Assembly (NCBI GenBank): GCA_013350335.1
Contig: CM023539.1
Coordinates: 20,752,448-20,816,447 of the forward strand
Direction: 5' to 3'
Source of the DNA: Chimonanthus salicifolius
Taxonomy: Eukaryota; Streptophyta; Magnoliopsida; Laurales; Calycanthaceae
DNA length: 64,000 nt
In this document: piece after piece, positions 1 through 64,000 of the stretch
Numbering within the stretch: the first letter of the stretch is position 1
Layout: each line of letters starts with the position of its first letter
Translations under genes and position numbers: made by a program
The notes under the pieces: generated by a model
What the model saw: only the letters and a program-made list of their open reading frames with translations
What the model was told of the DNA's origin: nothing
The model's database searches: none

Positions 1-826
1 ATGTAGTTCAGCCAAGGGTGGTATCCTTTAGTTGATACCCCTTTTGTAACTGCCATGACCCTTCACCTCCTCATTGATAATTCCTTTGGGGGTTTCATCC
101 CATGAGATGAAACTCCAACCATATGACCCTTGGGTTTCCATCATGAGATGGAAACCCTCCATCTCCCAACGTGTAGCCTTGTGTGTCTTTGTGTAACAAC
201 ACAACTCTCCAACTTCCTCATAAAGACACCACTTGAGATGGAACACCCCTCCATCTTCCAACGTGTATGCCTTGTATAACCACCAAAAACCTTTCACCTC
301 CTCATTAACCCTCATTGATATTTCCTTTGGAGTTTCATCCCATGAGATGAAACTCCCACCTCCAACGTGTGTAACCTTGATTTGGGTTTCATGAGGTGCA
401 ACTTTCCATCTTATCACCTAACTCACTTAAGATGAAAGTTCCATTAACTTCCCCTTCAACTCATCTCTTTAACTCAACTCATAACTTTAATTCAACTCAT
501 TTACTCACTTAAAGTCAACTCAAATACTTGATTCCATTTCCATCTTAATTCAGCCATATTTTAACTAAGCTTGAACTCACTTGGTGGTCAACCAAGTCAA
601 CCACGACCCATTGGGTCCCAAGTGGGCATTTGACCCAACTGACAATCTTGACCCAATTAAATAAGCCTTAACCATTTACTTCAAGTGAACCTTATCCATG
701 ATCCGTTAGGTCTTAATTGGACACTTGACCCAACACCTTACCCATCTAAGGTCTATCTCCATTAATTTACAACTTAAATGGACAATTTCCATAAATATTT
801 ATTACTTGAAAATACGGGGTGTTACA
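1..826 (-). repeat. 3' LTR of the left minus-strand gypsy element (cut by window edge)
   Basis: Read on the minus strand this LTR begins TGTAACACCCCG at 826 and runs off the window at base 1. The same sequence recurs at about 8761-9085 inside the LTR that starts at 5781, which identifies it as the partner LTR. It holds several GAGATGGA/TCCATCTC hairpins (for example near 145-165) and a GACCCATTGGGTC palindrome near 605. A purine-rich tract lies just outside its start. Open frames in this stretch are LTR sequence, not genes. Confidence 0.85.
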
Positions 827-846
827 ATACAACCCTCTTTTTAAAA
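827..846 (-). other. polypurine tract
   Basis: On the minus strand the bases directly before the 3' LTR are purine-rich (AAAAAGAGGGTTGTAT). This is the usual place and composition for the plus-strand primer of a Ty3/gypsy element. It follows the chromodomain remnant and a CTTCGCTCGATTTTC-like stretch also seen at the pol end of the other elements. Confidence 0.65.
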
Positions 847-887
847 TTTTAATCCTGAAAATCGAGCGAAGTAGGGTTTCAAATGGA

Positions 888-960
888 TTATATAAATAGC
901 TCAAGGTGAGTTGTTTTCATTTCCGATTCAAATTCCCAAGTGGCTTCCTCATCGAAAATT
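888..960 (-). pseudogene. pol 3' end: chromodomain C-terminus remnant
   Basis: On the minus strand this short stretch reads FDEEATWEFESEMKTTHLEL followed by two residues and a stop at 888-890. It matches the EATWE...EMR..(H/Y)P.LF end of the chromodomain in Tekay/Del-type gypsy integrases, and aligns with the longer copy at 42920-43339. Upstream it joins directly to a non-coding spacer, so the integrase core, RNase H and RT are missing from this element. It is a broken relic. Confidence 0.7.
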
Positions 961-5766: not shown

Positions 5767-5780
5767 GCTCTAATACCAAC
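5767..5780 (-). other. primer-binding site
   Basis: The minus strand reads GTTGGTATTAGAGC directly after the LTR end GGGCGTTACA. This is one base from the TGGTATCAGAGC site complementary to plant initiator Met-tRNA. It defines the 5' LTR end at 5781. Confidence 0.85.
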
Positions 5781-8700
5781 TGTAACGCCCCGCCCTATTT
5801 CACTCGCTTTCGGAAAATCAGAGTCTATTTTTTTTCTTTTGAATAAAGAGTGATAGAGAGCGGGACACCACGACGCGATCTAAGTCCAAGCTTCCAAAGC
5901 CCGACCCTTAACTAGCTAACCATACGTGTGCGTGGACCAAGTCCACTAAAATGATTCACACGTACTCAAGTTAACTTGCAGAATAATCATAAATGCGGAA
6001 TTACAATAGGATAACAATCCTATTCCATTTTAGATAGCAAGGACAACCATCACTTAATAGTAATTACCTTTAGTCAACATATGCAAAGTTAACATTCAAA
6101 CCACAACAAATAATCTAAGCTATTACATTCCCGAATGCTAGCTATTCAAATATATAGTCCATGAATAACTTAAATAAAACAAAACTAAAACATCCAAGCT
6201 CCTAAGCTTGGATCCGATTTCGTTCCTCGTTCCGTTCATTCCCTGTGTCATCAACTAGGGCAGAAGTAGGGCGTTAGACAACGCTCCCAGTAGGTATTCC
6301 AAGTACGGTCAAACACATGGGTTAGTATAAAAATCCAGATATAACACATCTTGTCGTATCTGTAAAGCATCGTATCCAAAACAGTGTATGATAATAGAGA
6401 TCCAATCATACAGATAAAAATCAGCAACAGTGCATGATAATAAAGATCATAATCATGCTTATGCAATGCCATGCCATGGGTGTCATATGCCATGAGTCCC
6501 ACCCATTAGCCATAACACAATCACAAAACATTCTCTTGATGGAAAGTTCAAGGTATCCTCACAAAACATAGTATCCTCTTGATGGAAAACTCCTCATCAA
6601 GGTATCCCCACAGTTCTCTTACGGATGCCCTGACGGAGTGTGGTCTCCGGTTACCTCTTGATGGGATAATGCATATCACGGTACCCCTCACGACTTTCGA
6701 ACGCCTCGACAGAGCGTGGGTCTCCGCTTACCTCTTGGTGGATAATGCACACCAAGGTCTTCATCTTGATGGAAAACTCCTCATCAAGGTACCCCCACAA
6801 TTGCCTTACGGACGCCCAGACGGAGTGTGGTCTCCGGTTACATATCATCCCTCCCATGCCATGCATGAGATGCAAATGACCACATGCTATGCAATTATAC
6901 AAATCATAGCATTAAAATCTCATCTTTGAAACATATCAGTTATACAAAATAATTCATCAAAATAGGAATTAAAACCATCATACATATCCCGTGGTATCAA
7001 TGAGGTAGGAATCCTACCAAATGACCACTAAAGTGTCCTTGCATTTTCGTCCAGAAACCGTTCACGATCGTACACCGCTTGTGAGGTCCTGTTACCTTAT
7101 AACATATCATTTAATCAACCACATATTCCATTTGATTTCCAAACAAGTTTAAGTCCATAAACATGTCTTAGTGGGGTTCGGCCATACAACATGGCCGAAC
7201 CTCACTCACTTGATTTTGGTCTCTCTTTTGATTTAACCAATCACATCCAGGTACATCATTTTAAAAACCCCAAGTCCACCAAAGAAACCTTAGTGGGTTT
7301 CGGCCATACAACATGGCCGAACCTCACTCCCTTAGTTTTGTGTCCTTCTTTTTAGTCATTTGATCTCTTAAATCATTCCATCTTTGATTCATAAATCTAA
7401 TCACTTAAACAATAATTATCTAACATTGATAACAACCTAAGTCCACAAAACATTCCTCCTGAGGTTCTGCCATACACCATGGTCGAACCCATGATCTTTC
7501 ATTTCCATCCCTTTTACGTCTTAGCCGTTATTCTTTCATAGCTACTTACTTAGCTTACTTATACATGACTTAGGTCCATAAATCATCATCAACACAACAT
7601 AGTTCCATGACTAAACTCCTCCATTTCATAGCTTGATGATTCATCTATTAAATCATACATGGATCTACCAAATGATCCATCAATGGTCCATAATTGGTTC
7701 ATGGGGTTTGGCCATACAACATGGCCGAACCCATGATGTCCCATTTCTATGTTCTTCATTAAATCTATTACAATATTTAACTCCATAAACCAAGGTCCCT
7801 CCATGGGGTTTTAATCATACACTTAGGTCTCTCATTTTAAAACATCATCTTCCATATTTAAAAACATATTAAGATGCCCACATTTCTCCATCATCTTCAT
7901 GGTCTGGCTACATGTAAATACCTCAATATTTCTCCATGCGGTTCGGCCATGTTGGTCCATGGTGCTCCACCCTTTTACATCATTTAGATCCATTTACCAC
8001 CATTAACATTTTCCAACATCCATCCATCATTCTCATCTTTAAAACCCTTTAAACATCAACAATATACCTCCATGTAAAACCTTTTAAAATCATTAATAAC
8101 CTTCCATGGGGTTAACCACCTTTAAAACCATTTAAACCAATGATGTTCTTCCATGGGGTTTGGCCATACAATATGGCCGAACCCTATGGTTCATCAATTT
8201 ATTCTAAAAATCATATAACCATGATCATATTCTTTTGATGGGGTTCGACCATACATCATGGCCGAACCTCATCCACCCCTTTTTGTTGTCCTTGATGGTT
8301 CTCATACATATAGCTTAGGGTTTGGCCATGCGAGGGCCAAACCATGATCCTTGGTCATTCACCATTCCATACATGGTTCATGCATAAAAGTCCTTAGCCA
8401 TAAGAATTAGGGTTCGGCCATGCAATGGCCGAACCATGTCCTTGACCATCTTACTTAATAAAATCTGATGGAGTACTTACCGATTCCGCGACTCCTCCGG
8501 TTTCTTTCATTCCTTCTTGTTCCTTTGATCTTCTTCTTCCTTACCATTTTCTTCCTTCCTTTTTGATCATTAGTCGATATTGATCTTCATAAAATCTTGA
8601 AATGAAAACCCAAAGAGAGGGTTCGGCCAAGAGAGTGTAGGTTTGAGAGAGAGAGAAGCTTGGGATAGAAAATACTCCAAGTCCTTTGTCTTGAGAGTGG

Positions 8701-9090
8701 TCGGCCTTGAGTGAGAGAGGGAGAGAGTGAGATAAAGCAAATAATTCTCTTTGCTGCCCAATGTAGTTCAACCAAGGGTGGTATCCTTTGGTTGATACCC
8801 CTTTTGTAACTCCCATGACCCTTCACCTCCTCATTGATAATTCCTTTGGGGGTTTCATCCCATGAGATGAAACTCCAACCATATGACCCTTGGGTTTCCA
8901 TCATGAGATGGAAACCCTCCATCTCCCAACGTGTAGCCTTGTGTGTCTTTGTGTAACAACACAACTCTCCAACTTCCTCATAAAGACACCACTTGAGATT
9001 GAACACCCCTCCATCTTCCAACGTGTATGCCTTGTATAACCACCAAAAACCTTTCACCTCCTCATTAACCCTCATTAATATTTGGCCATA
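5781..9090 (-). repeat. 5' LTR of the left element, fused to a second LTR
   Basis: Its low end is TGTAACGCCCCGCCC at 5781, next to the PBS. It contains the terminal hairpin (5933-5964), CCAAGC/GCTTGG (6191-6209), tandem CTTGATG/CATCAAG and CGGAG modules (6530-6840), the GGTAGGAATCCTACC palindrome (7004-7018), about nine GGTTCGGCCAT hairpins (7170-8430) and GAGATGGA hairpins (8860-9020). The last part, from 8761, repeats window bases 1 to about 320. Near 9085-9110 it breaks and restarts in the middle of another LTR, so the true upstream terminus is lost. Confidence 0.75.
5933..5964 (-). other. conserved terminal hairpin, left-element LTR
   Basis: Arms TACGTGTG (5933-5940) and CACACGTA (5957-5964), with GTGGA/TCCAC inside. 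Compared with A1 (TATGTGTG/CACACATA), one base pair has changed on both arms. Confidence 0.75.
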
Positions 9091-11954
9091 TCTCAGGACT
9101 GATATATGCTTAAGTCCACAATCACCCATTAGTGGGGTTCGACCATACAACATGGCCGACCCTCACCCTTTTGGTTTTGGTCCCCTTTTTAATCCCTTAT
9201 CATTTTAATCATGTGGATTCAAGATCATGTCATGTGGGTTCAAGATCATGTCATTTTAATCATTTAACATTAATAAAACCCTAAGTCCACAAAACATTCT
9301 TCATGGGGTTCGGCCATACACCATGGCTGAACCCATGGTCCTTCATTTTCACAATTTTCCATCTTAGCCATTATTCTTTTCATAGCTAATCACTTAGCTT
9401 ATTTGCACATGACTTAGGTCCATAAATCACTCATTAACTTAACATAGATCCATGACTAGACATTACATGCATGGATCCACAAATGATCCATCAACATGGT
9501 TCATGGGGTTCAGCCATACAACATGGGCGAACCCATTATGTTCATTTTCATCCTCCCTTTGAATCATTTACAACCATTTCAAACCCACTTAAAATCACCA
9601 ATAATCTTCCATCATTATCATCCTTTAAAACCTTTTAAAATCACTAACATACATCTATGATTTTCATCCTTAAAAATCCATTAACAATTACCAACATCCT
9701 TCCACAGGGTTCGGCCATGTTGGTTCGTTATTTTCTCTTATCCATCAAATACCAATGGTTAGATCACTTGATGGGGTTCGGCCATACACCATGGCCGAAC
9801 CTCATCCAATCCCTTTTTAGTCCTCAATGGTCCATGCATAACAATCTAGGGTTTGGCCATGCAAGACCAACCCATGATCTTTGATCATAATCCATCCCTT
9901 ACATTAAACATGCATGGGGTCCTTAGTAATCCATCATTTACATAACCTATCTTACCCATTAGGGTTTGTCCATTTTATATCTCATTTCTTGGATGGATTT
10001 TAAATCCATGGTCCATAATGTTTTGGCCAACTCTCCAATCTAAAATGGAATTCCATGGTTTCCTTTAATTTCCTTTTTATTTATAAAACATACTAAACCA
10101 TACGTACCGATTCCGCGACTCCTTCATCCTCCTCCGTTCCGTCTTGCTCCTCTGCTCTTTTCTTTCCTTAATCTTTCTTCTTTCTTCCTCCTTGATCTTC
10201 GGCCAAGAGTGTGTTGCTTGAGACGGAGAGGGTTCAAAATGAAAAACACAAAGAGATGGTTCGGCCTTGGTGAAGGTTTGAGAGAGGGAGAGGAGGAGAA
10301 AATGTACCAACCCTAATTGTTTTCCTTTGTTCGATGAGAGGGTCGGCCAAGCTTGAGAGAGAGCGGAGTCAAGGTAGAAAACTTCTAAAGTGTTTCTTGT
10401 CTTGCTCAATGAGAGAGGATCGGCCAAGCTTGAGAGAGAGAGGAGTCAAGGTAGAAAACTTCTAAGTGTTTCTTGTCTTGCTCAATAAGAGAGGGTCGGC
10501 CAAGAGTGGGAGGGAGAGAATGAGAGAGTGAGATGAGATGAGATGGAAAGCCAAGCCATTTTCCATCTTGTCTTGGGTTCCCTTGGTCAGGACTCCACCC
10601 TCTTCAATGTAGAGTCTTCCCCATGAGTCCATTGACCAAACAAGGGACTGCATGCCCTCCACATGGCACATACCACGCTCATCCAACGGTTTTGGTTTGT
10701 GGTTTCCCTTTGGTGGTTTGTGGTTTGCATGAGATGGAACCACCACTTCTCCTTGGATCAATCCATGACCTTGCATGCCTCCACATGGCACACACCACCC
10801 TTCCAACGATTTTGGGCTTGGTGGTTTCCTTTTGGTGCCTAGTGGTTTGCATGAGATGGAACCGGCACCTCTCCTTTGACCAATCCATGATCTTGCATGC
10901 CTCCACATGGCACATACCACCCTTCCAACGGTTTTTGGCTTGGTGGTTTCCTCTTGGTGGTTTGGTGGTTTGCATGAGATGGAACCACCACCTCTCCTTT
11001 GGCCAATACATGCTCTTGCATGCCTCCACATGGCACACACAACCCTTCCAACGGTTTTGGACTTGGTGGTTTCATTTGGTGGTTGGAGGTTTGCATGAGA
11101 TGGAACCACCACCTCTCCTTTGGCCAATCCATGCTCTTGCATGCCTCCACATGGCACACACCACCCTTCCAACGGTTTTGGGCTTGGTGGTTTCATTTGG
11201 TGGTTGGTGGTTTGCATGAGATGGAACCACCACATCTCCTTTGGTCAATCCATGCTCTTGCATGCCTCCACATGGCACACACCACCCTTCCAACGGTTTT
11301 GGGCTTGGTGGTTTCATTTGGTGGTTGGTGGTTTGCATGAGATGGAACCACCACCACTCCTTTGGCCAATCCATGCTCTATCATGCCTCCACATGGCACA
11401 CACCACCCTTCCAACGGTTTTGGGCTTGGTGGTTTCATTTGGTGGTTGGTGGTTTGCATGAGATGGAACCACCACCTCTCCTTTGGCCAATCCATGCTCT
11501 TGCATGCCTGCACATGGCACACACCACCCTTCCAACGGTTTTGGTGGAGTGGTTTCATTGAGATGGAAAACCCTCTTTGACTCACTCCATCTTTTGATCT
11601 TTTATGTGACTCATCCCGATTTGACTCATTCCATTTAAATGCAACTCAATTCCCGACTCAATCATTTGAATTTATATCTAACTTAGGTGATTTAATTAGA
11701 TAATTTAATTCCACTTACTTCACTTGATTCTCTTTAATTCATCCATGAACTCACCCATGGTTGACCAAGTCAATCATGGTGGCCGGCCCCACATGTGTCT
11801 TGGTTCACATGCTACCTCACTTGATGAGGTGGAGTTGGGTCCCACTTGGCCATGCCACTTGGATAATTCCTCATACACTTGCCACATCACTTGATGAGGT
11901 GGACCCCATGCCTTTTGATCATAATTGGGTCCAAGACCCGATTAAATCTATTCC
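9091..11954 (-). repeat. second minus-strand LTR body, headless, carrying the 121-bp array
   Basis: From about 9110 the sequence follows the middle of the same LTR type as 7140-8480: hairpins at 9130, 9305, 9500 and 9775, then the CCGATTCCGCGACTCC box at 10107, matching 8481. It continues through GA/TC-rich sequence (10130-10560), the 121-bp array, and the U3 stretch with GGTTGACCAAGTCAA near 11758 and TTGATGAGGTGG boxes (11820-11905). It is interrupted at 11955 by solo LTR A2 and resumes at 17682. No gene seen. Confidence 0.7.
10622..11570. repeat. 121-bp tandem repeat, about 7.8 copies
   Basis: Unit starts (CATGAGATGGA) lie at 10728, 10850, 10973, 11094, 11215, 11336 and 11457, with a diverged unit before and a partial one after. 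Spacing is 122, 123, 121, 121, 121 and 121. The central units are nearly identical and the outer ones diverged, as expected from unequal exchange. Each unit holds CATGAGATGGAACCACCACC, TGCATGCCTCCACATGGCAC and CCTTCCAACGGTTTTGG. Similar single modules occur elsewhere in these LTRs (53340-53720), so the array probably grew from an LTR module. Long open frames on both strands follow from the periodicity and shift frame each unit, so I do not call them genes. Confidence 0.95.
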
Positions 11955-48984: not shown

Positions 48985-49073
48985 ATATTACCATCTTTTG
49001 AAATTTTCGTCTCGAAAATCGAGCGGAGTAGGGTTTCAAACAGATTACATAAATAGCTTAGGATGAGCTGCTC

Positions 49074-50150: not shown

Positions 50151-50491
50151 GTCTTGACTTACTGACAAGTCAGGCAATGAACAACAAAATCAGCTACATC
50201 TCTTTTTAGTCCATGCTACCAATAATGTTTCTTCAGGTCATGGTACATCTTGGTGCTACTAGGATGAATAGAGAGTTTTGTTTGGTGTGCCTCGATCCAT
50301 AGTGCTCTTCTGCAGTTTCGAGGTACATATGTCCTGCCTCGGAATAAAAGACCTTGTCCCTGTCGTAATTCCCATTCCGGTACGACCTCACCAGTAGACA
50401 TTTTAACCCATATTTCTTCCACTTCTGGATCTGTCCGTTGTTCTTGCTCAATCTTGGAAACCATGCTGGACCGTACCATCCGATTATACAT
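50151..50491 (-). pseudogene. integrase H2C2 zinc finger and upstream linker
   Basis: Reads MVSKIEQEQRTDPEVEEIWV, GLLFRGRTYVPR, HQTKLSIHPSSTKMYHDLKK, HYW, stop, HGLKRDVADFVVHCLTCQ. The His and Cys residues of the H2C2 finger are recognisable, but an in-frame TAG lies before HGLK. Confidence 0.8.
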
Positions 50492-50508
50492 ACTCCCGCG
50501 GTCTTTGA

Positions 50509-50759
50509 TTATAAATTGAATTCCCGGATGGTGGTCAACATCTCCCTTTCCTTCATAATCAAACTGGCCACTGTTGCATGTGTCATGCGACTGAGGACAT
50601 CCGCCACTTTGTTCGCTTTGCCAGGATGATATCGAAGTGTGAACTCATAATCTTGCAGATACTCCATCCATCTGCGCTGCCTCATGTTGAGTTCCTTCTG
50701 ATCAAACAGATATTTCAAACATTTTTATCTGAAAATACCTCAAATTTCTCGCCATAGAG
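50509..50759 (-). pseudogene. RNase H, C-terminal half
   Basis: From the insertion point the minus strand reads YGEKFEVFSD, then a two-base loss breaks the HKSLKYLFDQ segment. After that it is open: KYLFDQKELNMRQRRWMEYL, RYHPGKANKVADVLSR. The VADVLSR motif is the usual end of the gypsy RNase H domain. The N-terminal half is 3.6 kb away, on the other side of solo LTR E1. Confidence 0.85.
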
Positions 50760-51479
50760 TGTAACACCCCGCTCTTTTCACTCTAAAATCCGAGTTTATT
50801 TTTTATTTTTTAAATAATAGTAAACAAGTGATCTGGACGGGACGTCACGACGCGAGTTAAGTTCGGACTTCTAAAGTCCGACCCTTAACTGGCCAAGCCC
50901 ATGTGCATATGGACTAAGTCCATAAGAACTGATCCACGCATGGTACAAATAAAATTTGCGGAATACACTTAATTTCAATCTAACTGCGGGTTATAATAGA
51001 TCCTAAGACTACTCCATTTTTAGATAGCAAAGTACATAATCATATTCTCCAAAATTACTAAAATAACCTTAAACTAATCATTCATTCCAAACCATCCAAA
51101 ACATACCTAACGATAGCAAATAGTTAACTAAATTATTACATGCCAACATCATCTAACTATCAAATTACATTGTCCATATAAACTTAAATAAAAGTCCATA
51201 AATCAATCCATAATTAAAAGTCTATTCAAAAGCCCAAGCTCCTATGCTTGGTTTCCTTCACGATCCTCGTTCTTCCCCTTTCCTGCGTCATCCACTAAGG
51301 ATAAAGATAAGGAGTTAGATCAATACGCCCAATAGGTGTTTCCAATTAGGGCTACCACAAGGTTAGTATAAAACTTGCAAATATCATAATAGTACATGAT
51401 CATCAAAACCTTATAAAAACAATGTCATGTATGTTATGCACATGTAATGAGTCCCACCCATCACAAATATACATAGCCT

Positions 51480-51640
51480 CCTCTTGACGGGATTCTCATT
51501 GTCAAGGTACCCCACAGTGGTCTTTCGGACGCCCCGACGGAGTGTGGCCTCCGGTTTCCTCTTGATAGGATTCTCATCATCAAGGTACCCCACAGTGGTC
51601 TTTCGGATGCCCCGACGGAGTGTGGCCTCCGGTTTCCATA
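51480..51640 (-). repeat. 78-bp tandem duplication of hairpin module in LTR E1
   Basis: Two units start near 51481 and 51559. The first has arms CTTGAC/GTCAAG, the second CTTGAT/ATCAAG, a paired change. Each is followed by CGGAGTGTGGCCTCCG. The same two-unit module occurs in LTR E2 at 62405-62560. Confidence 0.85.
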
Positions 51641-51954
51641 ATCACCACCCCATGCCATGCATGAGATGTCAATGAGTTCATGCCATTTGTAAATACATCT
51701 TAACATACAAACCACTTTGAAACATAATAACTTAGCACATATTTCATCAAAATTAAGGTAAAACATCAAATATAAGTGTGGTTACAAAAAGGCAGGAAAC
51801 CTACACAATGTTCACTTAGATTCACTGCTCTTTTAAACTGTCACCCGTTCACAACTTGTATACCGTTCAAGAAGTCCCGTTACCTTGTTCATATAACAGC
51901 AAGACAAACACATGTCCATTTAATTTCCAACTAAGTCTAAGTCCCAAAAACCAC

Positions 51955-52870
51955 TTTGTGGGGTTCGGCCATACCCATGGCCGAACCTCACCCACTTAAA
52001 TTTTGGTCTCTCTTTTTATTAACCAACACCATACCAATAACGTATATACAAACATACCTTGGTAGGGTTCGGCCATACAACATGGCCGAACCTTACCACT
52101 TTGATTTTGACTCTTCTTTCCTTTGAACATTTCATTCATATTTACAATCTTGCCACTTGCATAACCCTTGTTTAATTTTGTTTAATAACTAATGTCCATA
52201 ACAAACCCACCTTAGTGGGGTTCGGCCATACAACATGGCCGAACCTCACCATCTTAATTTGGTCCTTTAAATCCTTCATACATCCATCTCCAATTACATT
52301 ATAAGTTGACCACTAAGTCCACCAAATGATCATTAGTGGGGTTTGGCCATACTACATGGCCGAACCTTACCAAACTGATTTTTGTCCCTTTTTCCATCAT
52401 CTTTGATGGCTGATTATTTACTTATACTAAGTCCATAGATAAACATATGTGCTTCTTAAATCAAAAACATATAATCATCCATAATTTCCAACCATGTTCT
52501 TACTCCAATTAACCCATAAAAACAATCCATGGGTTTCGGCCATACACATGGCCGAACCCTATGGTTCTCTTGACTCAATCATTCCATCATTTATCCATGG
52601 TTTATGATCAGCAACTTAGCCATAATAACAACATGGTTCAACCATGCAATAGCCGATCCAAAACAGTAAACTTATCTCCATTTAAAAACCCTTTAAACCT
52701 TCAAAACATGGTGTGGTTTTTATCTCTCAAAAACCATAAAAATTACCAAGTCTTTTCATGGGGTTCTGCCATCCCAAGTGGCCAAACCCTATGATTCATG
52801 TTTTACCCTTTTTAAACAGCATAATCCATGATCTAAACCCTTGATAGATTCGGTCATACAATGGTCGGAT
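51955..52870. repeat. cluster of GGTTCGGCCAT hairpins in LTR E1
   Basis: Sites near 51962, 52067, 52217, 52340, 52535, 52630 (weak), 52762 and 52845 (weak), spaced about 100-190 bases. Loops are mostly ACCC, ACAAC or ACAC. Confidence 0.85.
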
Positions 52871-53334
52871 CATATTCCCTTAACCAATTTATTTAACAAG
52901 GGTTTATAGTGCACTTACCAATACCGCGACTCCTCCGGTTCTTTCACTCCTTCTTGACCTTCTCCTTCCTTAGTCCTTCCTTCCTCCCTTTCTTCTTGAT
53001 CTTTAGCCGATCCAAACCTTGCTGGAAACCCCTTGAAATGGTTCAGCCAAATTATTGATTTGAGAGTGAGAGATAGAAATTTGGCTTTGGATGAGAGTGA
53101 TAAAACCTTGGTGAAAAACTCCTTTGCTCTATGTGTACTTTTCTTGGTAAAATGATCGGCCAAGGACTGAATTGTGTGAGAGACAACCAGCCAATGATCC
53201 TTATCTTGAGAGGTGAAAAACATCCAAGGGAGAGAGAGGGAGAGAGTGAAATGAAACTCCTTTGGCTAATGAAATTCAGCCTAAGGTTGGCACCACATGT
53301 AACTCCCATTTGCATTCATTTCCTTTCCTTATTC

Positions 53335-53720
53335 TATTTGGGGGTTTCATCTTTGAGATGGAACTCCTAAGGCACCAACGGTTTTTGGCTCTTGGCTGCC
53401 CCAGATGTAACCTTCTTCAAGTGTGAACCCACTTGTAACTCCCATTTGCTTAATGCCTCCCTTGGGGTTTCATCCTTAAGATGAAACTCCCAAGGTACCC
53501 GACGGTTCCCATGCATGTCTTGTTGTATACATTCCTCCATCATTCATCTCTCATTAACCTTGCATGTGAGAGTTTCATTTTGAAATGAAACTCCCATAGG
53601 CTCCAACGGTCATGTTTCAATTGGCAATCCATAACCGCCACCTTTCATTTACTTGCCCATGGTTTCATCCATGAGATGAAACTCCTACATGCCAACGGTT
53701 TTGTGTCTTAACCCTTGGAC
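53335..53720 (-). repeat. dispersed GAGATGAAACTCC...CAACGG modules in LTR E1
   Basis: Four degenerate modules, each with ATG(A/G)GATG(A/G)AACTCC followed some 15-40 bases on by CAACGGTT or GACGGTT (near 53357, 53480, 53590 and 53670). They resemble a single unit of the 121-bp array at 10622-11570. Confidence 0.6.
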
Positions 53721-54376
53721 CATTCAACTATCCAATTCCCCTTTAATCCTCATGCATAGACTAATCTCTCATGCAATTCCAACGTGCACAATGCTTAAAT
53801 TTAAAACATAACCTCTCACCTTATGTAACTCCCAAAACCACCACCTACCTTCATTGTTATCTAGGAGTTACATGCATGGAATGACCTCTCCATGCAGCCA
53901 ACATTTTCCATTGTCTTACACTTGAAATCAATACACTCCACTCTCATTCACACACTTTACTCACTTAAAATTAATTTAACTCCCTCAACTCAACCCATTC
54001 ATTTAATTCAACTCAACAATAAATTCGACTCCACCTTTAAACTCAACTCATCCATTTAATTTGAATTAACTAAATACTTGTTGGCACTCCCATTTAATTT
54101 AGCCTAATCCCAAGTAATCTTGAGCTCACCCAATGGTCAAACATGTCCACCACGACCCATTGGGTCCCAATTGGGTCCTTCAACCCAATTAATCACTTTG
54201 ACCCAATTAGATGTACATTACCCATTTAATTTACTTTGATCATTATAACATGTACATTGCGTCTTATTTGAACAATGTACCCCACAATTTACTTATCTAC
54301 GGTCATATCCTTCTTATTCATACTTTCAGTGGCAATTTTGTAAATATTGATATATTGTAAAATCTAGGGAATTACA

Positions 54377-54830
54377 AAGAGATAGTGTCTCCAACTTTTG
54401 AGAGTGAACACCACTGCAGCTAATTCCAAATCATGTGTGGGATAGTGGCGTTCGTGGATTTTCAGCTGCCTTTAACCATAACCCACTATGTGATGACTTT
54501 GAGTTAAAGAACACCCAAGTCCTTCTCCTGAAGCATCACAACATACATCATAGCCCTTGCCACTTTCCGGCAAAATCAGAATAGGAGCAGTTCTAAGCTT
54601 CTCCTTCAGGTCTTCGAACCTTCGATTGCACACATCAGACCATTCAAATTTGACTCCCTTCTGAGTGAGTCTAGTGAGTGGAGCTGCAATCTTGGAGAAG
54701 TCCATAATGAACTTCCGATAATAACCAGCCAATCCCAGAAAACTGCGGATTTCGGTTACATTTCTTGGAGCTTTCCAGTTTCTAACTGCTGCTACTTTAA
54801 CCTGGTCCATGGCTATTCCCTTCGCTGATA
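54377..54830 (-). pseudogene. RT thumb/connection and RNase H N-terminal half
   Basis: 54810-54472 reads [48 protein letters not shown], then the RNase H start [18 protein letters not shown] and a stop at VGYG*. It resumes [20 protein letters not shown] and [11 protein letters not shown] to the insertion point at 54381. The DAS.EGLG strand holds the first RNase H Asp. Confidence 0.85.
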
Positions 54831-54894
54831 TGACATGTCCTAAGAAATTGACCTTAGATAACTAGAACTCGCACTTGCTTGCTTTGGCATAGAA

Positions 54895-55431
54895 TTAGTT
54901 GTTCTTCAAGGTATCCAGAACTATCCTTAGATGCTCAGCATGCTCCTCCCGACTTGTAGAATAAAGCAAGATGTTGTTAATGAAGACAATTACGCACTTG
55001 TCCACATACAGACGAAAGATTTTGTTCATTAGATCCGTGAACACAGTTGGTGCATTGGTGAGTCCAAATAGCATGACCACATACTCATATAGACCATACC
55101 GAGTTCTGAAAGCCGTCTTCTCTATGTCCTCATCCCTGATACGGATTTGATGGTAGCCTGACATTAGATCAATCTTGGAGAAATGCCCGGAACCTCTGAG
55201 TTGGTCAAATAGATCATCAATTCTGGGTAGAGGGTGCTTGTTTCTGACTGTTAGCTGGTTGAGTTTCCTGTAATCCACACACATCCGAAATGTACCATCC
55301 TTCTTCTTCACAAATAACACGGGTGCTCCCCAAGATGAAGTGTTGTTCAGGATACAACCTAGTCTGAGCAGTTCATCAATTTGTTTCTTCAGCTCAAACA
55401 TCTCTGTAGGGGCCATCCGGTAATGCGGCAA
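54895..55431 (-). pseudogene. reverse transcriptase with FINN in place of the FIDD active site
   Basis: 178 open codons cover most of the gypsy [80 protein letters not shown], then FGLTNAP. The first catalytic Asp (KIDL, residue 88) is present. The normal (F/Y)xDD reads FINN: both Asp codons are AAC (54973-54978). The PFGL segment reads LFGL. A TAG (55465-55467) precedes it and further stops follow TLKNN. RT would copy the RNA into DNA; this copy lacks two metal-binding residues. Confidence 0.92.
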
Positions 55432-55809
55432 TGATACTGGAGCTGTACCCGGATATAGCTTGATCTAGAAATCAATCTCCCTTTTTGGAGGCAACGCAGG
55501 GAGTTCTGTCAGGAATACCTTTGCGTACTCTTTCACCACCACAAGTAGTTCAGCCATTGGCGCCTTATCTAGTCTGATGTTGTTCAGTACTAGACGGGTC
55601 ATTTCCTCATGCAATTTCCAGGTCATGGGAATGCTCTGTCTGTCGGCATGTACCACATATCGTTTTCCCTCGGGTGACTAGAATATCACCCTGCGGAGAT
55701 GGCAGTCAATGCTGGCCTGGAAGTTAGCCAACCAATCCATGCCAAATATGATTTCGTACTCTATCATCTCGACTACCAAATAATTGAACTTAAACCTGAA
55801 CCTAGCAAG
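55432..55809 (-). pseudogene. protease-RT linker
   Basis: Reads MVHADRQSIPMTWKLHEEMT, the KAPMAELLVVVKEYAKVFLT segment, LPALPPKREIDF, then TAG at 55465-55467 before the RT entry [19 protein letters not shown]. The LPP.REIDF..L.PGT.P motif is typical of the start of gypsy RT. Confidence 0.8.
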
Positions 55810-56160
55810 TTAAGTGCCTACCGAAGTGCAAATCAGACCAAGTGATGTGTCTCCAATGGGGGACACAATAGTAAGTACAGTGGACAGTTGTTGTACTAAA
55901 GTGCCAGTAGCAGATATGAAGGCAGCAGATACAAAGTAGTGGGATGCTCCCGAATCAAATAATGCAATGGCATAAGAACTACCAACTACTATCGTACCAT
56001 GAATCACCGAGTGATCCACCGCCTCTTGAGGAAGAGCCAAAGTATACAGTCGTCCAGATCCTGTCGGAATAGGTGCCCGTCCTGTCAGGTTATATGCTCT
56101 GGATGCTTGAGAATGAGCTGGTCGTGCTTGAGGACGGAAGGTACCCCGGGAGTAAGAAGG
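55810..56160 (-). pseudogene. aspartic protease (DSGASH)
   Basis: The minus reading contains HGTIVVGSSYAIALFDSGAS followed by HYFVSAAFISA, the single catalytic motif of a retropepsin-type protease with its hydrophobic lead-in. It is in one open frame with the C-terminal gag linker. It ends at a stop after GLICTSVGT near 55810, so it is cut from the linker and RT. Confidence 0.85.
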
Positions 56161-57127
56161 TCTATTGATCTGTGGACACTCCATCTTGTTGGCTACACCG
56201 GAAACAGGTGCTAACACCTCGGGAAACCTTAGAGACGAATCCTGATGTGCAGGGTTGAGTGGGACGAAATCCTCCAGTTGACCCAGTAGAAGGTGAGCGT
56301 CTCCCAAAACTGGGTCTAAATTACTTGTTCGGGCGGAAAGCATTTCCCCCACTTTGACCTCGGCGACTGTCCACAAACTTGATTGTTTCCATCAGCTCTT
56401 GCTCAGCTATACTAGCTCGGCTAACCACTTCCGCCAAAGTAGCTGATTTGAATATTGTGACCTTGGCTCTTAAGCTAGGTCGTAGGCCTCGTTCAAACTT
56501 CCGAGCCTACCTGTATTCTGTGTCTACCATGTACATAGCATAACATGATAAACGGAGAAACTCTTGATAGTAATCCGCAACCGTCATGGTGCCCTGGACC
56601 AGAGATATGAACGCTTGTGTCTGGCGTTCCTTCTCTTCCTCTGGAAAATAATGATCCAGAAACATTCCAACGAACTGGTCCCACGTCATCTCGGTCCTTT
56701 CCCCCTGGAATCTGTGCTTGTTGACGTTCTACAACACTCCACCATTTGCCGGCATCATCTACCAATTGTGTGGTAGCCAGAAGTATTCGGTCCTCATTAC
56801 TGGTGATCTTAAGCAGCTTCAAGATTTTTGTGATGTTCTCAACCCAGTTTTCTGCTTCTGTGGGTCCCTTTTTCCCTTTGAAATAAGGGGGATGCTGCTG
56901 TTGGAAGTCCCTAACCATATTCCCGTCCTGTGATTCGTTGGAGGTTACGCTTCCAGTGCCGTTTTGATGTTACTGTAGAACGGAAGTGACCACTGCCTTT
57001 ACTAGGCTCTGCAACTCAAGAGGTACTTCAGGAATATTAACACTGTTTTGTCCTTCTTCTTGGTGTGGGTGTTGTACCTCTTCCTCCTGATGCGGGTTTT
57101 TTCAGGTTCTTCTTTTTCTCGAAGGCA
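56161..57127 (-). pseudogene. gag, several frameshifts, zinc knuckle destroyed
   Basis: The start ATG near 57125 is followed by a stop within nine codons. The capsid segment is open at 56918-56493 (PPYFKGKKGPTEAENWVENI, ATTQLVDDAGKWWSVVERQQ) and then changes frame near 56700, where two bases present in the other copy are missing; TWDQFVGMFLDHYFPEEEKE continues in the other frame. At about 56184 some 11 bases are missing compared with 44700, so the CCHC knuckle is reduced to KMECPQ. It cannot form a particle. Confidence 0.85.
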
Positions 57128-57545
57128 TTTTCCTAACTCATTGAAACATCGCTTGACTTAGTTTTCTCATAAAGTTTTGTGTTTACATAGTTTGGGAAAT
57201 TGCGAAATCAGCATCTTGTATTTATTGTTTTGGAGAACTTTCCAACGTATCACATATTGTTTCTCATTTTGGGGAAATCCTGACGTTTCTTATTTTGGGG
57301 AAATATGTCCTACCTTGCTATGTTTGATAAATCTGTACTTATAGTGATTGTCCTTCCCTTGCTGTTATTCTTTTCATCAAGTGTTGTTCTCAGATTGAAT
57401 GCTTACAGTCTGATTCTCAACAAAATAAATTAATCCGGCCCTCGTGCAGCAGACTCCGAAGAGTCGGTCAGTTGGGATTCTTATCTTGTCAGTGAGACAT
57501 GATACCGTATTAATCTTACTTTGAAAGATTCACACTTCCGGTTTC
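57128..57545 (-). other. 5' leader with TTTGGGGAAAT boxes
   Basis: Boxes TTTGGGAAATTG, TTTTGGAGAACTTTCC, TTTTGGGGAAATCC and TTTTGGGGAAATATG (57190-57310), then the conserved PBS-proximal stretch with CAGACTCCGAAGAGTCGGTC. That last stretch contains GACTC...GAGTC and could fold. Confidence 0.65.
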
Positions 57546-57559
57546 GCGCTGATACCAAC
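57546..57559 (-). other. primer-binding site
   Basis: The minus strand reads GTTGGTATCAGCGC directly after the LTR end, close to the initiator Met-tRNA type TGGTATCAGAGC. Confidence 0.85.
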
Positions 57560-60500
57560 TGTAATGCCCAGCCATTTTTTACTCGCCGAAAATCAGAGTA
57601 TATTATTTTTTATAAATAAAGAGTTAGAGAGGACAGGTAATGTCCCAACGCGACCTAAGTCCGAGTTTCAAAACCCGACCCTTAACTAGCCATCGATACG
57701 TCTGCGCGGACCAAGTCCACTAAAACAGTTGATACGCTTTATGATTAACTGCGGAATTAATATATGAATAGAATACTATTCATAACCATGATATTAATAA
57801 ACAAGGAAGATAGCCGCTATTAAATTAACTTAAGTTGAAACATCCAAAAATCATCATCCAACCATAGCAAAATAAACTAAGTTATTACAATCCCAAAATG
57901 GTAATTATCTCAAATACATTGTTCCAAAATTCATTAAGTAAAGTAAACATAGTCTGCCCAAGCTCCTAAGCTTGGCTCTCTTCACGTCCCATATCCTTTC
58001 TATTTCATGTTCCATCATCTAAACAGTAGAAGTAGGGCATTAGTCAACACGCCTAGTAGAAATTCCAAATAGGGTTATACACAAAAAGGATCAATTTAAA
58101 AATTAGAATAAGAATATCATATCAAAACAGTAAACATATCATAGTGCCAAAAACAGCGCATGATGACATATCCAAATCATGCAAATGTATGTGTCATGTC
58201 ATGGGTGTCATATGCCAATGATCCCCCACCTAATCTCCATATCAACACCATACAAATCATAACAACATTTTCCTTGATATATTGGAACCATATCAAGGTG
58301 TTCCCTTGGCCATTTACGTCCGCAGTGTTTTGTGACGGCACCACCAGGTCACTGTTATACCTCCCCATGTGTGTTAATCGGAATTACCGATGGAGCATGG
58401 ACTCCTCCCTCTGCACAGGGCTTTTGGAGTGATTACCCTTGAGCCATTTGGCCCAATTACGCCGTACCCCTATCTAGCAATCCCGAACAAGGGCAACATA
58501 TCAATGGTTCACATAGCTTTTTACAAGCTAGTTTCAAGCCCCAAGTCATGTCCGGACAACTCATAACTCCGTTTGCTATCCCATATACTCCCTCCCATGC
58601 CATCCATGAGATCATGGATGCAGAAATTCCATTTCATATAAAATCATATTGAAATTTATTTCATAAAACTTATACCATTTGATTTACCAAAATAAACATT
58701 GTATTGAAATAAAAACCAGTAACATATAACATCCATTTGCATCTCAACATGGTAGGAATCCTACCAAATCTCAGTATAGTATCCTTGTTATTTTGTGATG
58801 TGATGTGCAACGATTACGTCAAAACCAATCACTCACCCGTTTGCGAAATCTCTTTACCTTAAAATGAATTCAATCATATACAATAATCAATTTAATTATC
58901 CATTTTATTTAAATCATCCCTGACATCCTTCCAGTTAGACTGATGTTTTTGGAAACATCAAATAAAAATCAACTTTTCATTTCGGTCGACTGAATCACGC
59001 TCAGCTACAGTGTTCTGCCTTACCGCAGACTTTCGGTCGACTAAAATACATTTTCAGTCGGCTGAACACCAACTCAGTATAGTTATTCTTTGACTCACTA
59101 ACATTTTAGTCGACTGAATCACGGATTCAGTCGGCTGACTCTGAGTCAAAGCCTTTTTATTCTCGGTCAATCCCCTTTCAGTCAACTGAATCATAGATTC
59201 AGTCAGCTGACTTTTGATCAGATTGACTGTATGTTTGGCCAATATAGATTCAGTCGACTGAATACATGATTCCGTCGACTGAATCATCAGCCAACAGTTT
59301 ACGTGTTTGCTAAGTAATCATTCAGTTGACTGAATCAAAGATTCAGTCGGCTGAAACACGTCAGATCCCTTTACTTATTTGATACGTCTTATTTCAGTCG
59401 ACTGAATCCCATATTCAGTCGGCTGAAACATCATTATACCCATTATATTCAAATCCAGACATGGTTCAGTCGACTGAATCTAAAGATTCAGTCGGCTGAA
59501 ACTCCCAGAATTGGTTTTCTATGTTCAGCCATACCAGTTCAATCGACTGAATCCCAGATTAAGTCGACTGACTGTATGTCAGTCTACTTTGTTTGTATAT
59601 TTGGCTTGACCCTTCCTCATGGAATCCATTCCTTATTATTTTTAAACATAAATAAAACCATTCATCTCACTTTCAGTGAGTTCACTCTATCCTCTAGCCA
59701 AAGTTAGAGTCTTCTCACAATCTATTCCTATCTTAAGCCATTAAACATAATTATAAATTTAATCCCATGGTTGTTGGTTTCCAACACATGTCCATTCCAT
59801 GGCTTGTAACAGTTTAGCCATCCATTTCGTGGATTGTGGAACCCATAGATTCGGCCATTCCATGACCAAGTCTATGGTTCACCCTTAGCCTTAATCATCC
59901 ATTGTTCTTAAGCTTAAGACATACCTTTTCCCATCTCCTCCTTTCTTTTGGTCTGTCTTTACTCCTCAGTCCTTCTCCTTCCCTTCTTATTCTTCAACAA
60001 CTTTCTCCAAGTGTCGATGGTGTAGATGAAAAAGAGATAGAGAAGAAGAGGAGAGAACTCTCTTGTTTCCCAAAGGTGAAATTCGGCCAAGGGATGTGAT
60101 GTGCCCCTTGGTTGGCATCCCTTTGTAACAGCCCAAAACTCTCCATCTTTCCTCATAATGTTTCCTTTGACCAATGAGTCCCTTCGCTTAACCAATGAGT
60201 CCCATTGTATTCCCAATGTGTGCATGGTTCCGTGTCCCTTAAGATGGAGACTTTCCATCTTCCTCTTCAACTCACCTTGAGATGGAAGTCTCCTCAACTT
60301 CCATCTTAACTCATCCCCAACTCAAACCTTATTTACTCAATTAAACTCATTAATTTGAACTCACTCACTCGAGGAACGTTACTTCTTTTAAACTCAACAC
60401 TTGTACTTAATTAAATGTGAACTCAATCTAATTGGAACTTAATTGAGCTCACCCATTCATGGTTGACCAAGTCAACCATGACTTAACCGACCATGCATGT

Positions 60501-60900
60501 GGTGACATGGTCACCACATGGCACGTGGGTCCTATCCTTGCCATGTCATTTATGATGTGGCACCTCACATACATGCCACCTCACTTGATGGGGTGGATTT
60601 ACGTATTGGGTCTTAATTGGGTAGCTGACCCAATTAATTAAACCTTACCAATTTAGTTAAAATCAACTCATTTATGACACATTGGGTCCCAATTGGGCAA
60701 TTGACCCATTTAATCACCTTTACCCAATTATTTCCAAATCGAATTCTATCTAGGATCCATTGGATCGTAATTGGGTCATTGACCCAACACCTTTACCCAT
60801 CTAAGGTCCATTCCATCTATAAATCTTAAATTCAACTAATTTAACAATTTAAATAGACAAAATCCAATATATTTATGCATTGAAAAATCCGGGTGTTACA
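57560..60900 (-). repeat. LTR D3, 5' LTR of the chain (3.34 kb)
   Basis: Low end TGTAATGCCCAGCC at 57560, high end ATCCGGGTGTTACA at 60900. It is the most complete D-family LTR here: decayed terminal hairpin (57680-57740), CCAAGC/GCTTGG (57958-57976), GGTAGGAATCCTACC (58751-58765), palindrome cluster (58981-59585), GAGATGGA hairpins (60245-60295) and the two exact hairpins near 60458-60522. It is followed by TCACG. Confidence 0.92.
58981..59585. repeat. TTCAGTCGACTGAA palindrome cluster in LTR D3
   Basis: At least sixteen copies of CAGTCGACTGAA or CAGTCGGCTGAA. Good pairs include 59108-59142, 59178-59212, 59323-59357, 59395-59428 and 59466-59500. Each arm is itself nearly palindromic, and the two arms are inverted relative to each other around 3-7 bases. 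Confidence 0.9.
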
Positions 60901-61966
60901 TCACGGGTACTCATACAACCCAAGACACCTTCGAAGTGATCCTAGGCTTATCTCAGGCAAGTATTAACTCGAACTTGTCACCGACTCGCTATAAACAATC
61001 ACCAACATCAAATGCACACAAGTTCATGGGCTCAAAAATCACATACAGATGTGGCCTACGTAAAGCGGCTCGACACGTATCCAATGTAGACAAAGCTATG
61101 CGGCTCAACCCCGAAATGTAGAAAATGCTACAATATACTCATAGGTGTTCATCCATGGAAGGGGTCTAATCCTTCAAACGGCCAATTGTACGTTATTTCC
61201 TCCACTCCAATAGCGACATAATCTATCACTAAAGTAAAATCCCAACCATGTCTAATCGTACCACATGGTTCTATATGGAATGGGATATAAGAAAGGCTAT
61301 GCAAATCATGATACCATCTCATAACAAGGATAGTCTAACCCCTGCAAAGCTTTAAACACCAACTCCCTACTCAAATCCATGGATATTTGTCCTTCCCACA
61401 TAAACATCGCTTCCAAGATCCATTGCACCCAGGAATATCCCAAAAAAAATAACAAGAAAGGTGGAATAGCGAAAGGATTACTTTTGGGAGAGAAAATCTG
61501 AGAGGGAGGAAGCTTGAGATGAATCTATCTCCAATCTCCTGCTTATAATTGCCCAACACGAGGCTAGAAAAGGAAAGAATCACTAACACGAGGGTATACT
61601 CCTCATTAAATGATGTCACACATCAATCTCCAACAAGGAGTACATCTACTACACTAGGGAGTTCCAATGGGTGAGGTATTATACTCATAGGCTCTACCCA
61701 ATTGACAACCACTCGACTTTAGTGTTAAAAATATCCAAATGCTCAATCTACCCATCCTCTTATTCACTTCAAAGTAGACCGACTCTAAGTCCAACTTGAA
61801 TCTGTGATGTAGATGGAATGCCATGGTAGATACGATGAGCAATTTGATCAAATAAATGCTAGATTTCTAATAAAATAGTATGTATAGCAATTTCCACATA
61901 TATTCACAACTATTATTCCATATGGGGTTGACATTAGGAGATATGCTTCAATTGCGTTGGTGATTT
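60901..61966. other. unclassified sequence between two LTRs
   Basis: About 1.07 kb without LTR features or recognisable protein. It may be the continuation of 32142-34958, split by the chained elements. An 82-codon open frame on the minus strand (61371-61619) has no recognisable features. I see no RNA gene. Confidence 0.45.
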
Positions 61967-64000
61967 TGTAACACCCCGCCCTTTTCACTCTAATTTTCAG
62001 AGTTTATTTTTTTTTTTTAAAAATATAAGAATCATGTGATTGGGGCGGAGTGTCACGACGCGAGTTAAGTTCGGATCTCTAAATCCGACCCTTACATTGT
62101 CCACATAATTCAAATAACACATCCATGAATAGTCCATTCAAAATCATTCAAACTGCCCAAGTTTCCGTGCTTGGTTTTCATCTCGATCCACGTTCTTCCC
62201 TTTCCCTGCGTCATCCACTAAGGATATAGATAGGGCGTTAGATCAACGCGTCCAGTAGTGTTTCCGAATAGGGCTACCACATGGTTAGTCAAAAACATGC
62301 AAATAATATAATAATAACACATGTGTGACAAAATTCCATAAAAACATGCTCTGTATGAAATGAACATGTAATGAGTCTCACCCATCACCATTCAACATAG
62401 CCATCACTTGACGGGATTCTCATCGTCAAGGTAACCCACAGTGGTCTTTCGGACGCCCCGACGGAGTGTGGCCTCCGGATTCCTCCTGATGGGATTCTCA
62501 TCATCAGGGTACCCCACAGTGGTCTTTCGGACGCCCCAACGGAGTGTGGCCTCCGGTTACAACACCATCATCCCATGTCATGCATGAGATGTCTATGCAA
62601 ACATGTCATTTAGAAACATAGCTTTACAAACATACAAGTTATTGAAATCAACATAAAACAACATAGAATAGTGGTTACAATAAAGGTAGGAAACCTACTG
62701 AAGATTCACTTCAGTACGTGATCTTTCTTTCGCGTCACCCGCTCATGACTTGCACGTCGTTCAACTTCCGGTACCTTATCCATATAACAATCAATAAATC
62801 ATACTATCACTTACTTGTTCATTCATATCTAAGACCCAACTACATCATGTGAGTCCTTTGATCAATCCCTTCGTTTGACTTGTATTCACAGATTTGCCAT
62901 TGGTATAACTAATGTCTAATCTTGCTCATAATCAAAGTTCATAAAAGTAATCTACCTTAGTGGCTGGTTATTTACTTATCACTAAGTCCAAAGATAAATC
63001 CATATGTTTACTTAATCCAACTCATACAACCAAGTCATAATCTCCAACAAAACAATCTATGGGGTTCGGCCATTCATATGGCCGAACCCTATGATCCTCC
63101 TACACAATGATCCCATCATTTGTTTACAAGTTAGGCTCTACCATTTACCCATATTAACTACAAGGTTCAGCCATCCCATGGCCAACCCAAAATCAGTAAC
63201 CTTATTACATAAAAACCTCCCAAAAACAGTCCACAAAGGTCTATGGTTTCCATGTTTTCCAACATGAAAACCAACCCTCTTTTACATGGGGTTCGGCCCT
63301 CCATGGTGGCCGAACCCAATGGCTATGTTTACTGTTTTTAAACCTCATATAAACATGTATAAACAGTATATTAATATCAGGTTTTAACTCTCAAAGAAAT
63401 CATCCAAAACAGTCCATAAAAATTCTATGGTTTACATGTTTTTCCAACATGAAACCAACATTCTTTTACATGGGGTTCGGCCCTCCATGGTGGCCGAACC
63501 CAATGGTTATTCTTACTGTTTTTAAACCTCAGATAATCAGGTAATAACAATATATTATTAACAGGTTTTTATCTTTCAAACTAACATCCAAAATTAGCTC
63601 AATTCCATAGGGTTCGGCCATGCTCATTGGCCGAACACCATGACCTTTGGTTTTGAACTTTTAACCCTTTATCTTGGGTCTGAAACCAACATCCAAATCC
63701 ATATTTTAACCTCCTCAAAACATGTATTTTAAATCCAAATAATAACATCTAATATCAGTCCCAAACTATATGGTCTTAATTTCCAAAAACTATCAAAAAC
63801 AATCACTTGTTTCCATGGGGTTCGGCCATGCAAAGTGGCCGAACCCAATGGTCCATTTCCATCTTTTAACCCACTGATTTAGACCACATAAACTTCAGCC
63901 TTTTCTGATATCCAAACCCATGTTTTAACCCTCATTAAAACATGTATTTTGAATCTAATAAAATATGTAAAAACAGTCCACAAAATCCATGGTTTTCATG
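61967..64000 (-). repeat. LTR E2, cut by window end
   Basis: Low end TGTAACACCCCGCCC at 61967, preceded by GATTT. It is related to solo LTR E1. It carries the two-unit hairpin module (62405-62560) and GGTTCGGCCAT-type sites near 63063, 63165, 63294, 63474, 63609 and 63821. Two sites have the variant arms GGTTCGGCC/GGCCGAACC around CTCCATGGT. The other end and any internal region are outside the window. Confidence 0.85.
62405..62560 (-). repeat. tandem hairpin module in LTR E2
   Basis: First unit arms CTTGACG/CGTCAAG, second unit CCTGATG/CATCAGG. Each is followed by a CGGAGTGTGGCCTCCG hairpin. Two base pairs differ between the units and both are changed on both sides. Confidence 0.85.

Follow-up and report, generated by a model that had tools for sequence, protein, structure and literature searches.

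Long terminal repeats (LTRs) of Ty3/gypsy retrotransposons in Chimonanthus salicifolius, examined here from a 64,000-nucleotide stretch of contig CM023539.1 (the window), are rich in short palindromes. In a diverse lineage of these elements the palindromes may fall into two layers, an RNA structure at the 3′ end of the LTR and a set of DNA boxes upstream of it, a reading that we judge evenly balanced between right and wrong. Alignments between families show that the last ~190 nucleotides (nt) of the LTR, which lie next to the primer-binding site, behave as a conserved sense-strand RNA structure. The ~3 kb before them carry a regular succession of palindromic boxes, whose arms exceed the flanks in conservation and show no sense-strand preference for G-U pairs.

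The window belongs to an 852.6-Mb genome in 591 contigs and is crowded with Ty3/gypsy elements. The cleanest of them, element A, has LTRs of ~3.75 kb and is flanked by the 5-bp target duplication GGTGT at 19925–19929 and 31294–31298; its primer-binding site presumably fits the initiator methionine tRNA.

19930–31293, plus strand: element A (LTR, internal region, LTR), with LTRs 99.8% identical and termini TGTAAG..TTACA
19930–23680, plus strand: 5′ LTR of element A
23682–23694, plus strand: primer-binding site TTGGTATCAGAGC
27541–31293, plus strand: 3′ LTR of element A

For comparison, 30 extra loci around the anchor palindrome GGTAGGATTCCTACC, all on one contig (C1), were picked from 100 listed of the 10,471 places where this palindrome occurs in the genome (1 for its reversed control). 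With the six anchors of the window they gave 36 LTR regions, which fell into 26 families (86% identity along 1,200 bp or more) with one representative each. These families were delimited here and not matched one by one to families A–E of an initial annotation of the window, and the anchor is present in 26 of 26 only because the loci were selected by it.

Inverted repeats in the LTRs

Inverted repeats with perfect arms and loops of at most 30 were counted in the window against 12 dinucleotide shuffles, with mirror and direct repeats as controls. At arm lengths of at least 8 there were 195, compared with 28.9 ± 4.2 in shuffled sequence, 81 mirror and 148 direct repeats; the corresponding counts were 59, 2.4, 19 and 41 for arms of at least 10, and 11, 0, 4 and 23 for arms of at least 12. 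Across the LTR span of the 26 representatives the density was 2.70 per kb (mirror 1.04, shuffled 0.42), and outside that span, where other nested LTRs are included, 1.15 (mirror 0.54, shuffled 0.34). LTR A contains 19 inverted repeats in 3,752 bp, compared with 3 in the 3,859-bp internal region of its element. Five Copia elements of the same genome, sampled as pieces totalling 18.5 kb, had 0.86 per kb, where mirror repeats reached 0.70 and shuffled sequence 0.41, no clear excess, which speaks against a genome-wide palindrome habit, although the identified LTR in this control amounts to just 924 bp from four of the five elements, too little by itself. A first look for the Copia reverse-transcriptase family RVT_2 gave 8,753 candidates genome-wide, of which 150 were scored.

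The palindromes belong to recurring classes, present in the following numbers of the 26 families: GACCCAWTGGGTC 18, CCACCTCA 19, GGTTGA/TCAACC 13, GAGATG/CATCTC 6, GGTTCGGCCAT 20, the TTCAGTCGACTGAA type 4, CTTGAYG 18, GGGCG 20, CCAAGC 21 and a terminal hairpin 15. One family (L037) has only the anchor and the box preceding it, with no other class. Along LTR A the classes upstream of the 3′ domain are arranged as follows.

20132–20144, unstranded: palindrome GACCCAATGGGTC; class in 18 of 26 families
20297–20317, unstranded: inverted repeat CCACCTCA..TGAGGTGG; class in 19 of 26 families
20349–20373, unstranded: inverted repeat CCATGGTTGA..TCAACCATGG; class in 13 of 26 families
20486–20507, unstranded: inverted repeat ATGAGGTGA..TCACCTCAT; three families
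20535–20561, unstranded: inverted repeat TGGTGGTGGTT..AACCACCACCA; eight families, arms co-vary
21624–21748, unstranded: two cluster hairpins GGGTTCGGCCAT..ATGGCCGAACCC (21624–21652; 21712–21748 with 16-nt arms)
22338–22440, plus strand: conserved box from TAACAAGGTA (TAATAAGGTA in most families) to the anchor palindrome GGTAGGATTCCTAC (22426–22440); all 26 families
22828–22949, unstranded: three hairpins CTTGATG..CATCAAG; class in 18 of 26 families
23164–23186, plus strand: hairpin ACTGGGCG..CGCCC; class in 20 of 26 families

Arms are conserved between families beyond their surroundings. In the cluster, identity was 0.916 for arms, 0.810 for loops and 0.725 for flanks (taken 10–40 nt from the arms); the values were 0.865, 0.781 and 0.755 in the unique 3′ (U3) part and 0.805, 0.766 and 0.759 in the 3′ part, whereas mirror-repeat arms were conserved like flanks (0.746–0.761). 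Where inverted repeats defined in one LTR were aligned to other families, 579 of 949 cells with two-sided changes (61%) kept Watson–Crick pairing, compared with 22–31% for partners displaced by 1 to 3 bases (slid partners). Because the families are related, the cells do not count as independent. Examples are TGTCTAAGTAC/GTACTTAGACA compared with TGTCTAGGTAC/GTACCTAGACA, ATATGGATAG/CTATCCATAT compared with ATATGAATAA/TTATTCATGT, and the arms of CTTGATG..CATCAAG, which change jointly to CTTGACG..CGTCAAG. With identical hairpin pairs counted once, 418 cells remain, 236 of them C-G/T-A exchanges, a part of which could be explained by CpG decay on both strands. Of 352 two-sided changes in mirror repeats, 153 (43%) left the repeat symmetrical, which probably stems from low complexity, and some of the 61% seen in inverted repeats may have the same source.

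Several claims of the initial annotation bear on these counts. It had described LTRs filled with short inverted repeats in a similar order, and this is confirmed, with 2 of 807 pairwise order tests violated across the 26 families, a steadiness that the search ranges force in part. Its proposed comparison with shuffled sequence came out in favour of an excess (195 against 28.9), and the arms, for which it had named independent divergence as the refuting outcome, change jointly (61% against 22–31%). It described the LTRs as strings of short hairpins, but GGTAGGAATCCTACC, GACCCATTGGGTC and TTCAGTCGACTGAA, with 0–1 central bases, are palindromes and not full hairpins.

RNA structure at the 3′ end of the LTR

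The 3′ domain was defined on alignment A1 of LTR 3′ ends, one row per family, in which 23 of 32 rows were kept; L012, L015, L037 and W46859, whose LTR 3′ end is not clear, were left out. Its consensus structure comprises stem-loops A and B (SL-A and SL-B) and a helix in which the last LTR bases pair with GTGACG..CCC, a stretch ~70 nt upstream (helix C in LTR A).

23501–23545, plus strand: SL-A, CTACGCGTG..CACGCGTAG, with inner stem CGTGGA..TCCACG
23554–23589, plus strand: SL-B, AGTTAAG..CTTAACT, with an inner stem
23596–23680, plus strand: helix C, GTGGCG..GCCC paired with the last LTR bases GGGGCGGGCGTTAC
5780–5978, minus strand: 3′ RNA domain of the left element's LTR (row of A1)
34958–35151, minus strand: 3′ RNA domain of an LTR (row of A1)
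57559–57751, minus strand: 3′ RNA domain of an LTR (row of A1)

The RNAalifold consensus energy of A1, calculated without the A-rich tract, was -22.9 for the sense strand and -4.3 for the antisense strand, compared with -6.1 ± 2.5 for 100 column shuffles, and single-sequence folding of the LTR 3′ end favoured the sense strand in 22 of 23 rows. In the consensus structure 95.9% of cells are paired; 16 cells carry two-sided changes (6.0 ± 2.0 in shuffles) and the covariation score is 0.209 (0.181 ± 0.006), neither value being reached by any of 500 shuffles. With G-U pairs disallowed, RNAalifold left only 3 pairs on A1, which is uninformative.

Because energy-based folding favours G-U pairs, a strand-neutral test was used in which stems were chosen by Watson–Crick pairs only. 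At the LTR 3′ end the ratio of G-U to A-C was 54:9 (17 to 4 by sites, p 0.007). Ten related families gave 21:3 (sites 18:3, p 0.0015); a second method put them at 16:4 (9:3 by sites, p 0.15). A sliding scan along the LTR was likewise clearly stronger in sense at the LTR end. Collections of viral and prokaryotic contigs contained no stretch matching a degenerate SL-B pattern, which says nothing about plants.

The structure would work in the leader of the genomic RNA, where it would keep the LTR end beside the tRNA-primer site and might serve priming, packaging or dimerisation.

Upstream palindromic boxes

Upstream of this domain the same test gave no comparable signal. With strand-neutral stems, G-U and A-C stood at 8:17 and 16:24 in U3, at 1:1 and 8:7 in the cluster, and at 10:10 and 6:9 from +60 to +900. 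Genome-wide, CpG-transition variants of the cluster hairpin numbered 2,307 and 2,275 of the G-U type and 2,469 of the A-C type, in three of four planned counts. Because G-U never clearly exceeds A-C there, the upstream palindromes are read as DNA boxes, and they look like double-stranded DNA features, though some may also have antisense or local RNA roles. Most likely they would be cis-regulatory sites bound by two-fold symmetric factors, as proposed for the palindromic motifs of Sirevirus elements. An RNA function for the whole palindrome string was considered and is unsupported upstream, where G-U has no excess over A-C.

The box at 22338–22440 and its counterparts in the 26 families have a CpG observed/expected ratio of 1.48 in LTRs that are otherwise CpG-poor; a promoter or a processing site may lie there. 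A CT-rich block lies at ~20650–20800 in LTR A and between -1000 and -2300 from the anchor in most families, in most of which a GA-rich block follows within ~60–130 nt. Such a succession resembles the surroundings of plant transcription starts.

A number of results weigh against the two-layer division. At the 3′ end, the 8 pairs of A1 with two-sided change are not clearly above the 5.0 ± 1.6 of shuffles (matched by 29 of 500), nor are its further pair types (140 of 500); six settings of the strand-neutral test gave p values of 0.004–0.15, of which the upper end is not in its favour; and in the ten related families some structure appears on the antisense strand of this end too. Upstream, cluster mismatches common to several families comprise 12 G-U and 44 A-C, the latter G-U if read antisense. 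These 44 are mostly one recurring pair next to the core and so are not independent; the imbalance leaves room for an antisense role. The sliding scan was mixed, some U3 windows and +262 to +649 leaning sense, and -1706 to -1468, -591 to -412 and +736 to +895 leaning antisense. The ratio of G-U to A-C with slid partners scatters widely (0.11–19) and is not a clean control, and neutral decay in dead copies may dominate the mismatches and would hide RNA selection upstream. Finally, no conserved TATA box was found, TATAWAW having no common place in the 26 family representatives.

A slot with alternative palindromes

A slot at roughly -1400 to -100 relative to the anchor holds palindromes that differ between families. 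Hairpins of the GGTTCGGCCAT type occupy it in 20 of 26 families and TTCAGTCGACTGAA-type palindromes in 4, two of which have both; L022 and L023 carry GCGGACGG..CCGTCCGC there, and L029 and L031 carry ACTGATTTT..AAAATCAGT. Perfect cores of the form GGTTCGGCCAT-N3..8-ATGGCCGAACC occur at 68,676 places genome-wide, compared with 0 for the reversed control. Within the window the slot is represented by the following clusters and arrays.

7175–10268, minus strand: GGTTCGGCCAT-type hairpin cluster
13624–16496, plus strand: GGTTCGGCCAT-type hairpin clusters
58981–59572, minus strand: TTCAGTCGACTGAA-type palindrome array of another LTR family, in place of the GGTTCGGCCAT cluster
47088–47659, minus strand: TTCAGTCGACTGAA-type palindrome array, a further copy of the family at 58981–59572

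With LTRs counted singly, TTCAGTCGACTGAA-type copies number 11, 12 and 11 in three families and 5 in a fourth, spaced mostly at 21 and 51 bp as in a tandem array, and GGTTCGGCCAT hairpins reach at most 7. The GGTTCGGCCAT hairpins of one LTR have core and loop in common and flanks that are barely alike (identity 0.332 against a background of 0.272), with 0 of 202 within-LTR pairs from 19 LTRs exceeding 0.6. Tandem duplication was therefore rejected as their origin, the flanks being hardly homologous within an LTR. Outer arms vary from hairpin to hairpin yet remain complementary: CCATA/TATGG in L020, AATGA/TCATT in L013, TCATG/CATGA in L014 and L025 and, beyond one A-C mismatch, GATG/CATC in L024 and TTAGTG/CACTAA in L016. 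Such arms suggest that symmetry itself has been kept, by selection, template switching or both.

A more far-reaching proposal, to which we give a rather low probability, is that palindromic symmetry itself is the conserved feature of these LTRs, that the slot with each family's own palindrome (of the GGTTCGGCCAT, TTCAGTCGACTGAA, GCGGACGG or ACTGATTTT type) is a family-specific address, and that the separate sense-RNA domain does the leader work. The address would be read by a symmetric factor or by a hairpin-binding element protein and, if so, would let families and non-autonomous copies avoid cross-talk.

Alternative explanations

All hairpins might instead act in the element RNA, the string of stem-loops being a family-specific code for packaging or dimerisation in which non-autonomous copies take part. 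The sense RNA structure at the LTR 3′ end is in keeping with this, as are the cluster arms of up to 16 nt and the loops, of which those of 3–9 nt are the commonest in U3 (76 of 145) and in the cluster (68 of 102), with the cluster loop conserved. We nevertheless find it unlikely, because neither the upstream nor the genome-wide counts show G-U in excess over A-C and several classes, with 0–1 central bases, cannot close a full hairpin. The RNA role put forward in the initial annotation is supported for the LTR 3′ end only, where sense folding (-22.9 against -4.3) and the G-U excess agree, and lacks support upstream; the transcriptional control that it also mentioned is the better fit for the upstream part, whose boxes lack a G-U excess and resemble Sirevirus motifs.

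The palindromes could also be a by-product of template switching, a mechanism described in general terms in PMC8794818: when reverse transcription or replication meets a quasi-palindrome, a switch of template makes or repairs perfect arms with no selection. It accords with two-sided changes that are common and strand-neutral and with outer arms that differ between hairpins yet stay complementary. As a full account it seems to us improbable, given arms more conserved than flanks between families where mirror-repeat arms are not, the steady class order, and the small margin in Copia pieces (0.86 inverted against 0.70 mirror per kb, with only 924 bp of LTR). The hairpin-templated repair of the initial annotation does not alone predict the conservation of arms over flanks, but it may help to keep arms alike.

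That the hairpins feed small-RNA production, with folded transcripts diced and the elements silenced, is doubtful to a greater degree: in maize Sireviruses the palindrome-rich parts of the LTRs are hotspots of small RNAs (PMC10760457 and PMC5311732), but selection would keep such a target only for another benefit, and the absence of an Rfam match in the window says little. Chance or low-complexity matches have a negligible probability as the source of the inverted repeats, since, although mirror repeats also exceed the inverted-repeat expectation (81 against 28.9) and low complexity thus explains part, the 195 observed exceed both values, the reversed controls stand at 68,676 against 0 and 10,471 against 1, and chance is ruled out for the main classes by the counts against shuffles.

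Relation to known elements

Element A combines paired LTRs, a primer-binding site and a short target duplication, and on the minus strand of the window the domains follow the Ty3/gypsy order of protease, reverse transcriptase, RNase H and integrase, the Pfam matches being RVP_2 (55810–56391), RVT_1 (54895–55464), RT_RNaseH_2 (54472–54861) and SH3_Tf2-1 (49271–49948). Integrase_H2C2 at 50216–50644 scored under the cut-off, and the Ty3/gypsy reading frames of the window are broken and interrupted. Tekay/Del chromoviruses, also Ty3/gypsy, have multi-kb LTRs. The elements described here share with them the domains, the LTR length and the 5-bp target duplication. No Pfam chromodomain was found at E ≤10 in two integrase-end fragments (42920–43354 and 49271–49948), but plant chromodomains may escape Pfam when divergent.

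The closest counterpart to the upstream boxes is found in Sireviruses, a Ty1/copia group whose LTRs, according to Bousios et al. 2010 (PMC2829016), contain element-specific repeated palindromes, mostly with a CGG-CCG core, upstream of the TATA box and in CpG islands; palindrome-rich Sirevirus regions have also been tied to small RNAs (PMC10760457 and PMC5311732). The statement in the initial annotation that no such LTR architecture is described was in this respect too strong. As in those accounts, the palindromes here are LTR-borne, repeated within an element, different between elements and symmetric with or without a spacer, and the CGG-CCG core recurs in GGTTCGG..CCGAACC, although it is absent from the TTCAGTCGACTGAA and ACTGATTTT types. 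Where the Sirevirus definition asks for one palindromic motif repeated eight or more times in an element, single LTRs here have 11, 12, 11 and 5 of the TTCAGTCGACTGAA type and at most 7 of GGTTCGGCCAT.

The differences, measured against what those sources describe, are several. By domains and their order the elements are Ty3/gypsy and not Ty1/copia; several classes, not one motif, follow a steady order along ~3.75-kb LTRs; arms reach 16 nt and a separate sense-RNA domain stands at the LTR end. The cluster is CpG-poor (observed/expected 0.28–0.51 over -1500 to -120) with no CpG island, 1.48 being attained only in the anchor box, and no conserved TATA box was found in the 26 representatives. The palindromic boxes can be regarded as a feature whose kind is already known, here in a different superfamily. 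Among the papers listed by the searches, judged mostly by titles and abstract openings, none describes a two-layer plan in Ty3/gypsy LTRs. The Sirevirus palindromic motifs were reportedly studied further by Bousios et al. in 2016 (Genome Res 26:226).

RNA structures around R/U5 and the primer-binding site are a feature of retroviral and retrotransposon leaders. The 3′ domain resembles them in that conserved RNA helices directly precede the primer-binding site and one helix uses the last LTR bases; the domain has no Rfam match, and its leader function is putative. PMC3601003 mentions a U5-IR loop as well as stem-loops within long R regions.

Other features of the window

The internal region of element A (23682–27540) has scant recognizable coding sequence despite the 99.8% LTR identity, as in a non-autonomous copy. 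At 41120–60900 the minus strand has three LTR copies, related to one another and interspersed with internal pieces at 92–95% identity, which suggests a tandem LTR–internal–LTR–internal–LTR arrangement with nested insertions. A tandem array with a unit of ~120 bp and ~90% identity at 10628–11559 has long open frames on both strands. Rfam families gave 0 matches at the gathering score in the window.

Implications

Palindrome clusters in LTRs have been described as a Sirevirus trait and tied to regulation and small RNAs. The same habit in a second superfamily, at 68,676 perfect hairpin copies, would make such clusters a recurrent feature with a testable cause. Within a single LTR the strand test tells an RNA layer apart from a DNA-like one using sequence alone, and the 3′ domain offers a concrete model of leader structure for very long LTRs.

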